The notes beneath the pieces were generated by a model. It did no database searches, was not told the origin of the DNA, and was given only the letters and a program-made list of their open reading frames with translations. A DNA stretch of 43,284 bases from Patescibacteria group bacterium (GTDB lineage: Bacteria > Patescibacteriota > Minisyncoccia > Phycocordibacterales > UBA918), in assembly GCA_019750255.1 (NCBI GenBank), contig JAIEOU010000010.1, positions 1 to 43,284 of the forward strand, given 5' to 3'. Position 1 is the first letter of the stretch. Each line of letters begins with the position of its first letter. The translations under genes were made by a program, and so were the position numbers. Below are positions 39,181 to 40,755 of the stretch, piece by piece.

Positions 39181-40089
39181 GTGGTTACACCCAAAGTCAT
39201 CGCCATCGTTGGCCCTACCGCCTCGGGCAAAAGCTCGCTGGCAATCGAGCTCGCCCTGCGCCTTAATGGCGAGGTGGTTTCAGCTGACTCGAGGCAAGTC
39301 TACCGCGGGATGGATATTGGTACCGGTAAGGTGACTACCGAAGAAATGCGCGGTATCCCCCACCATCTCATAAGTATTGCTAACCCTGCGACCGAAACCT
39401 ACACCGCCACGAACTTTACCGATGATGCAAACGCTGCCATCACGAACATCCTTTCGCGTGGAAAAACGCCCATCATCTGTGGCGGCACTTTCTTTTATCT
39501 TGATATTCTCCGTGGCAAAATGGGCGCTGCCCCAGTACCGCCAAACGAGACCCTTCGGAGGGAACTGGAAGCGCTTTCTACCGACGAGCTTTTAGCACGT
39601 CTCACCAACCTCGACCAAAGAAGAGCCGCCACAATCGATACCAAGAACCCCCGTCGCCTCATGCGCGCTATCGAAATCGCCACAGCCCTCGGTGCCGTGC
39701 CTGAGGTCGTGGAGACCGAATCCCCGTACGAGTGGACAATAATCGGTATCGATATCGAGCCGGAGCTCTTACGCGAGCGCATTGCTCGACGCCTTGAAGA
39801 ACGCCTCGCTAATGGGATGATTGAAGAGGTGGTCGCCCTTCATGAGAGCGGCGTTTCGTGGGAGCGCCTACAAAGCTTTGGACTGGAGTACCGCTATATC
39901 TCAAAGTATATACAAGGAGACATAACTGAAGCCGCTCTGCGCACAGAACTCTTTTACGCGATTTGCGGCTACGCTAAACGCCAACGCACCTGGCTCCGCC
40001 GCGACCACGACATAACCTGGCTCCCTTTTCCGGTGGATAGTATCCAGACCCTCTCCCACCTGCAAAGTAGCGGATTTATGGTAAGATAA
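39181..40089 (+). CDS. miaA: tRNA dimethylallyltransferase
   Basis: 302 aa, GTG start 20 bp after tRNA-Leu. It transfers the isopentenyl group to A37 of tRNAs reading UNN codons. Motifs: P-loop IVGPTASGKSSLA, SADSRQVYRGMDIGT, IPHHLIS, ICGGTFFYLDIL, and a C-terminal KRQRTWLRRD. The neighbouring tRNA-Leu(CAA) is a likely substrate. There is no separate promoter in the 20-bp gap, so the gene is probably read from the tRNA promoter. Confidence 0.95.
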   Translation: MVTPKVIAIVGPTASGKSSLAIELALRLNGEVVSADSRQVYRGMDIGTGKVTTEEMRGIPHHLISIANPATETYTATNFTDDANAAITNILSRGKTPIICGGTFFYLDILRGKMGAAPVPPNETLRRELEALSTDELLARLTNLDQRRAATIDTKNPRRLMRAIEIATALGAVPEVVETESPYEWTIIGIDIEPELLRERIARRLEERLANGMIEEVVALHESGVSWERLQSFGLEYRYISKYIQGDITEAALRTELFYAICGYAKRQRTWLRRDHDITWLPFPVDSIQTLSHLQSSGFMVR

Positions 40090-40130: not shown

Positions 40131-40201
40131 GGGCCTATAGTTCAGTGGTAGAATGCCGGTTTCCAAAACCGTTGACCGAGGTTCGAATCCTCGTGGGCCC
40201 G
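40131..40201 (+). tRNA. tRNA-Trp (anticodon CCA)
   Basis: Acceptor GGGCCTA/TGGGCCC, anticodon stem CCGGT/ACCGT-type with loop TTCCAAA (CCA), T-arm GAGGTTCGAATCCTC. Discriminator G followed by CCG, so CCA is not fully encoded. The 3' end runs straight into the structured element at 40201-40283. Confidence 0.93.
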
Positions 40202-40283
40202 CCGAGATAGACGAAAACAACTAGCATAAATATGCTAGTTGTTTTCGTCTAGCAAGCAACCTTCGTTGCTTGCGTATCTCGGC
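40201..40283 (+). other. three-way-junction element at the tRNA-Trp 3' end
   Basis: Outer stem GCCGAGATA/TATCTCGGC (40201-40209/40275-40283) encloses a perfect 20-bp hairpin with a 2-nt loop (40209-40228/40231-40250) and a perfect 9-bp hairpin (40252-40260/40265-40273). Parts recur downstream: 16 bp CTTCGTTGCTTGCGTA at 40669-40684 and GCCGAGATAG near 40688-40697. Confidence 0.85.
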
Positions 40284-40337
40284 GGGAGCCGGAGCGCTGT
40301 AAGGAGCGCGCCAAGCGCGCCAAGCGCGACGAACCGC

Positions 40338-40405
40338 GAGGCGGGGTCGCGGGTACTTAGTTAAATTTATACGAAGTATAAATTTTACTTAGTAACCTGT
40401 GACCG
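40338..40405 (+). repeat. hairpin repeat R1
   Basis: 68 nt: starts GAGGCGGGGTCG, ends GTGACCG. Folds into one long hairpin with a GAA loop, a bulged A on the 3' arm and T-T mismatches. See R2 and R3. Confidence 0.85.
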
Positions 40406-40443
40406 TATGCGGGATCCGGAATGATGTGAGCTTGCGAACAAAT

Positions 40444-40512
40444 GAGGCGGGGTCGCGAACACTTAGTAGATTTGGAACGAAGTGAACAAATATACTTAGT
40501 GATTTGTGACTG
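40444..40512 (+). repeat. hairpin repeat R2
   Basis: 69 nt: starts GAGGCGGGGTCG, ends GTGACTG. Same fold as R1 with the bulged A and central T-T mismatch in the same place; loop GAACGAAGTGAA. Confidence 0.85.
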
Positions 40513-40592
40513 CCGAGCGACCTTCGTCAGGTTCTGGCTCGAGCGGGAGCCGCAGGCATGTTGTTATTTCCGATCTAGAAATAAAAACAGCC

Positions 40593-40662
40593 GAGGCGGA
40601 GTCGACAGCACTTACTACAAATTGGAGCAAAGCGAACAATTTTAGTTAGTGACTGGTGACCG
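40593..40662 (+). repeat. hairpin repeat R3
   Basis: 70 nt: starts GAGGCGGAGTCG, ends GTGACCG. Same fold. A G-C pair of R1/R2 is C-G here, and the distal stem is AAATTG/CAATTT; loop GAGCAAAGCGAA. No gene is recognisable anywhere in 40202-40755. Confidence 0.85.
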
Positions 40663-40755
40663 CAGTAACTTCGTTGCTTGCGTAACCGCCGAGATAGAAG
40701 TACTGCGCTGCGCGTGGTCGCAGAAATTTGTGAAAGGAATAATTTGTGCCCGAAC

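Follow-up and report, generated by a model that had tools for sequence, protein, structure and literature searches.

We propose that a hairpin (hairpin D) present in three copies behind a tRNA-Trp gene, in a 43,284-nt stretch of a Patescibacteria genome (the window), is probably a module of a lineage-specific, non-autonomous family of mobile palindromic elements that is REP/RPE-like and targets gene 3' ends. The direct evidence comprises the fold and its covariation, the placement of the copies, the repetition of the gene end (T) in direct and inverted orientation, filled and empty sites, and one nested insertion with a 21-nt duplication; the direct-inverted-direct copying of the target is an unusual feature of these arrays. 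The initial annotation recognized the hairpins but missed both their placement behind the 3' ends of tRNA and other genes and the direct and inverted copies of those ends. If our reading is correct, genomes of about 0.6 to 1 Mb that are usually thought to be streamlined carry a dispersed palindromic element for which the 3' ends of essential genes serve as landing sites while the genes remain unharmed, and one may ask which enzyme is responsible for copying a gene end in direct, inverted, and again direct orientation.

Fold, covariation, and distribution of hairpin D

Three direct copies (R1, R2, and R3) are present where they had been described, but their limits need adjustment: the GAGGCGG lead that they were said to share is the 3' arm of the preceding hairpin, module C, and hairpin D proper begins at GGTCG (Table 1). 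The copies lie 142, 248, and 397 nt 3' of tRNA-Trp, on the tRNA's own strand. The long hairpin proposed for all three folds far beyond dinucleotide shuffles, both as DNA (z scores of -5.6, -4.4, and -4.0 for R1, R2, and R3, respectively) and as RNA (-6.3, -4.4, and -3.0), and the compensatory swap from ACTTAG/CTTAGT to ACTTAC/GTTAGT, together with the T-T mismatch and the bulged A of the 3' arm at constant positions, is real. Two larger alignments strongly support the suggestion that such covariation implies selection on the folded form. Among 16 D copies from the window's own genome, two-sided changes are found in 14 of 24 pairs and 91.5% of cells are paired, compared with only 25 to 42% in slid controls. 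Among 118 copies from relatives, in an alignment that was fitted to the covariance model, 94.5% of cells are paired (only 27 to 45% for slid versions of the same alignment), and double-changed cells number 394, against 99 in shuffles, with none of 500 shuffles reaching as high a value. Because 22 of the 24 base pairs in this alignment carry two-sided compensatory changes, we regard the fold of D as conserved. Of 86 apical loops scored, at least 66 are GNA triloops, which are exceptionally stable in DNA, and G.U accounts for 1.9% of D pairs, compared with 4.4% in the tRNA acceptor stems of the same genome, if one conserved wobble at the base of D in the 118-copy alignment is set aside.

In the window's own genome (950 kb, 16 contigs, of which the window is C8), a sequence search found about 10 D copies beyond the three in the window and the covariance model found 18 that score above 50 bits, these own-genome results covering the places searched and selected stretches. 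A search of relatives with the model, as had been advised, recovered D in 45 of the family's 49 genomes, none with more than 23 copies, and in 105 of the 247 genomes of the order; the initial annotation had held that its reading would fail if relatives lacked copies or if pairing was lost, and pairing-preserving copies are abundant in relatives. Of 380 genomes sampled across the phylum, 7 have a match, 6 within the order and 1, which is weak, outside it; the family is lineage specific and nearly absent elsewhere in the phylum. Sequence-similar matches come from records named Candidatus Kaiserbacteria and from other Paceibacterota-type MAGs. Only tRNAs match Rfam 15 within the window, and matches elsewhere are weak, at chance level, and never above the gathering score; searches of viral contigs and plasmids for the repeat gave no match, the only match among phages was to a terminase gene, short and at chance level, and open-licence papers contained nothing relevant on such repeats in Patescibacteria. 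We supply a covariance model for this repeat, which is absent from Rfam, and in Kaiserbacteria the family may serve to mark assembly breaks and to follow strain evolution. Several arrays are no more than about 700 nt away from a contig end (in the window's own genome, at the starts of contigs C3, C6, C15, and C16); it is therefore probable that assemblies break at arrays, and copies may have been undercounted.

Array architecture and placement behind gene 3' ends

A common layout recurs across loci, in which the gene 3' end T is followed by hairpin A, a long perfect hairpin that is often terminator-like, then by the small hairpin B, T in inverted orientation, hairpin C (GCCGCAGCGATG...CCGCGAGGCGG), and hairpin D; T in direct orientation and the native terminator often come next. 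In the window, the C-D pair occurs three times, joined by GCGGGA; the 12-nt T segment is 100% complementary to the inverted repeat at 40275-40286, and CCGCCGAGATAGA of the array end is also found at 40199. T and inverted T close a three-way junction with A and B, and inverted T and the downstream T could form another junction enclosing C and D. At loci of the T-loop type, B is located inside the inverted T copy, at the boundary between T-stem and acceptor. The same slot may be occupied by a second class of module, in which a ACCTTGCC...GACAAGGT or CCCGATTGAG...CAATTGGG stem is followed by GTACTG-nnnn-TGTAA-nnnn; in 23 of 34 matches to this pattern the short stems, of 12 kinds, are fully complementary.

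Table 1. Components of the array in the window and partial tRNA copies at other loci
Feature	Position	Strand	Evidence
miaA-like ORF (tRNA dimethylallyltransferase-type, putative by sequence)	39181..40089	+	ORF list
tRNA-Trp(CCA), array at its 3' end	40131..40203	+	ARAGORN, Rfam RF00005
T segment CCCGCCGAGATA, last tRNA-Trp nt plus spacer; 5' strand of closing stem	40198..40209	+	
Hairpin A, 21-bp perfect, A-rich/T-rich arms, terminator-like	40208..40251	+	Inverted repeat
Hairpin B, GCAAGCAACCTTCGTTGCTTGC	40252..40273	+	Fold; same module type in relatives
Inverted copy of T, TATCTCGGCGGG; 3' strand of closing stem	40275..40286	+	Inverted repeat
Hairpin C copy 1, AGCCGGAGCGCTG ... CCGCGAGGCG	40287..40344	+	Sequence; same module before D in relatives
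Hairpin D copy 1 (R1)	40345..40404	+	Covariance model, 65.5 bits, E 2.3e-11
GCGGGA joint and module C copy 2	40409..40450	+	Direct repeat family, sequence
Hairpin D copy 2 (R2)	40451..40511	+	Covariance model, 82.0 bits, E 3.6e-15
GCGGGA joint and module C copy 3, with GTTATTTC...GAAATAA hairpin	40543..40599	+	Direct repeat family, sequence
Hairpin D copy 3 (R3)	40600..40661	+	Covariance model, 73.1 bits, E 4.0e-13
Array end: direct copy of module B part CTTCGTTGCTTGCGTA plus tRNA-end/spacer CCGCCGAGATAGA	40669..40698	+	Direct repeats
5'-half tRNA copies	L012 1120-1280; L056 and L048 upstream of tRNAs		

A same-strand tRNA lies upstream within 250 nt of 55 of the 97 D copies analysed in relatives and within 500 nt of 62; opposite-strand tRNAs within 500 nt number only 3. 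In the window's own genome, 14 of 18 copies lie no more than 500 nt downstream of a same-strand tRNA, against a baseline in which the 500-nt flanks of its 39 tRNAs make up only about 1% of strands. Most other copies follow tmRNA (L100 and L133), ftsZ, rplB, rplL, or tRNA-like remnants. Direct T copies of at least 12 nt are present at 26% of relatives' loci, compared with 0.5% of mismatched loci, and inverted T copies of at least 10 nt at 14%, compared with 1.3%; in the window's own genome, matches of at least 11 nt to the flank's own tRNA are found in inverted orientation at 9 of 39 tRNAs and in direct orientation at 8 of 39, compared with 0.1% and 0.3%, respectively, for the flanks of other tRNAs. 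Direct T copies begin in the T-loop, at nt 56, and in most cases stop close to the 3' end of the tRNA; at other loci, judged by eye, T comprises only the last few nucleotides of the tRNA (the acceptor-end form). The direct repeat stops at the tRNA end in most tRNA cases, the flanks being unrelated, whereas at the ftsZ and rplL loci the homology between the two copies extends beyond T into the terminator region. A perfect hairpin of at least 9 bp stands between the tRNA and D at 53 of 55 tRNA loci, and a T run is present in 31 of these 53.

Other rearrangements were seen around tRNA genes. Copies of the 5' half of tRNAs (Gln, Ser-gct, and Glu-ctc), with hairpin inserts and ending at the D-loop, lie upstream of the intact tRNA, and at one locus (L185, G033:C42) an intact tRNA-Glu is preceded by truncated copies whose D-loop and 3' part contain hairpins, an arrangement that appears to represent nested insertions inside tRNA duplicates. 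In the window's own genome, about 1.85 kb separates tRNA-Ser(act) from its array (C15, 74258-76435; L070 and L045); this stretch contains apparent ORFs, one of them zf-TFIIB-like and one without assignment, and looks as if cargo entered at the tRNA end.

Mobility and competing explanations

C-termini of miaA-like genes are also found upstream of tRNA-Trp in many relatives and mark orthologous sites. Among 30 genomes in which the tRNA-Trp site, mostly behind miaA, was sorted by eye, the terminator alone is present in about 7, a C-D array in about 14, and the second module class in about 7. The clean insertion case is one locus pair and concerns a second-class module rather than C-D: in G040, a 176-bp insert, composed of 155 bp and of 21 nt that exactly repeat the 3' end of the tRNA, stands between the tRNA and an older array, and once it is subtracted the sequence aligns with that of G028 through the terminator, B, and inverted T, with the junction restored. 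Because orthologous sites can be either filled or empty and 21 nt of target were duplicated in one case, a REP/MITE-like mobile hairpin is the best fit among the three options put forward in the initial annotation. In a nearest-neighbor test, D copies group neither by genome nor by locus and give no signal of vertical or within-genome copying, a result expected for dispersal and equally for a short constrained sequence.

We suggest that insertion would take place at the 3' ends of tRNA, tmRNA, and a few protein genes, on the gene's strand, and that the inserted unit would comprise hairpins A and B, inverted T, C, and D, with direct T copies at both bounds, T being the gene end, either a stretch of about 20 nt that begins in the T-loop and runs to the end of the tRNA or the few nucleotides of the acceptor-end form. 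The target gene would stay functional because a copy of its own 3' end remains in place. We favor the idea that recognition of D takes place on single-stranded DNA, namely the non-template strand of the gene; the GNA triloops, the paucity of G.U pairs, and the terminator-like hairpin between gene and D point to a role in DNA. Insertion might be effected in trans by an enzyme, possibly a host Xer-like recombinase, or by a nick and snap-back repair at the terminator palindrome, and arrays could then grow by repeated insertion at the same site. We know of no normal transposition or site-specific integration that leaves an inverted T within the element, which counts against our reading; the inverted T may arise when a nick at the T boundary is followed by strand displacement through T into the terminator palindrome, and then by snap-back copying that stops where the nicked duplex is reached, the product being joined to C-D. 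The nick and snap-back route predicts terminator homology, which is seen in rplL and ftsZ but not at most tRNA loci, and it is therefore at best a partial explanation.

Surveys of Y1, RVT_1, and PF00589 proteins revealed no mobilizing enzyme. Nearly every genome has one housekeeping-like Xer recombinase, whether or not it carries D, and this enzyme does not track D copy number in the PF00589 survey; the only PF00589 gene of the window's own genome is Xer-like and scores 79 bits with the integron-integrase model, against a cutoff of 265. Reverse transcriptase was found in 12 of 49 genomes in the RVT_1 survey, and its rarity and its absence from G040 and the window's own genome led us to reject a retro-origin; a tRNA-primer-like origin of the T copies was set aside because these continue with gene-encoded bases and have no added CCA.

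It seems unlikely that the arrays act instead as a structured RNA, a 3' trailer or attenuator of tRNA and highly expressed transcripts, with inverted T as the pairing partner of either the gene end or the T copy downstream. The strong covariation of D, its conserved basal G.U, the constant strand and distance from the gene end, and the match of inverted T to each species' own gene end would suit such an RNA, but a terminator-like hairpin intervenes between gene and D at nearly all tRNA loci, G.U intermediates are few, many orthologous loci have no array, and Rfam has no match. Of the options in the initial annotation, a structured RNA, taken as a free-standing molecule, is less likely. Smaller still is the probability that we attach to replication errors alone, whereby snap-back template switching at the terminator palindrome, akin to tandem-inversion duplication, would yield T, palindrome, inverted T, and T, with B, C, and D spread by gene conversion and no dedicated enzyme. 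In favor are the direct-inverted-direct layout, which matches an inverted triplication, the position of the terminator palindrome at the turn, the continuation of copy homology past T into the terminator region at ftsZ and rplL, and the fact that no enzyme tracks the repeats; against this, C and D are conserved in sequence and fold over many families, and most tRNA direct repeats end at the tRNA end, with unrelated flanks. We give equally little weight to a short single-stranded or dumbbell DNA unit (T, A/B, inverted T, and C/D) that would integrate via T, with folded recombination sites and an Xer-like or other single-stranded-DNA enzyme, in the manner of an integron for tRNA 3' ends that can trap genes, the last part being suggested because the 1.85 kb at tRNA-Ser(act) may show trapping.

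Mobilization of REP elements by the genome's RAYT (Y1) transposase is largely refuted and very improbable, and RAYT was rejected as the owner of D: there is one RAYT-like gene in the window's own genome (L060, contig C9, 1100-2800) and the bulged hairpins are similar to long REPs (PMC6006769), but the gene is flanked by its own, different palindromes, CCCGGAGTCCCGGCCTCCGGGAAGCTAA, rather than by the tRNA-linked repeats, the Y1 survey gave no match in G001, G005, G007, G010, and G019, which carry 9 to 16 D copies, and GTAG or GTGG stands at the D foot in only 9 of 97 copies. The RAYT-like gene adjoins a BrnT/CopG-like toxin-antitoxin pair.

Relation to known repeats and integrative elements

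By analogy, D appears to behave like palindromic mobile DNA of the REP/RPE type, with target boundaries resembling those of tRNA-targeting integrative elements. The REP, BIME, and REPIN sequences are short imperfect palindromes with constant bulges or mismatches, intergenic, located at gene 3' ends, lineage specific, and non-coding (PMC3116915, PMC6006769). D is likewise a non-coding imperfect palindrome with constant bulges and mismatches and many intergenic copies, lineage specific, and at gene 3' ends; it differs from REPs of the GTAG superfamily in its 5' foot, which is dominated by GCGG, TCGG, and CCGG (GTGG having been included in the count given above), in having no RAYT linkage and a single orientation for all copies, and in its fixed targets, which are the ends of tRNA and other genes and are copied in both orientations. 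Rickettsia palindromic elements and CGTC-tagged repeats have spread with no recognized dedicated transposase (PMC3733652). D is also palindromic with no such transposase recognized, but the CGTC tag is found at the 5' foot of none of 97 copies, and here the hairpins form modular four-hairpin arrays in which the target 3' end is duplicated and inverted.

Integrative elements that target tRNA genes cross over at the T-loop or the tRNA 3' end and regenerate the gene end as a direct repeat. The T boundaries described here, at the T-loop or the tRNA 3' end, are crossover-like in the same way, but the arrays are only about 150 to 500 bp long, have no integrase gene, contain an inverted target copy, and use many different tRNAs and protein genes as targets. 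An integron attC site, also offered in the initial annotation, shares with D the folded single-stranded hairpin with extrahelical bases; this option is unsupported because R boxes are lacking (RYYYAAC/GTTRRRY in none of 115 D copies) and no integron-type integrase was recognized at the cutoff. We set D apart from REPs, CGTC repeats, and attC sites because the tests that define them (foot, RAYT, boxes, and integrase) failed. TIGR (tandem interspaced guide RNA) arrays are made up of repeated stem-loops in parasitic bacteria and phages (PMC12045711); the arrays described here resemble them in their repeated stem-loops and differ in that no Tas gene was noticed beside them and that their variable parts copy the end of the neighboring gene.
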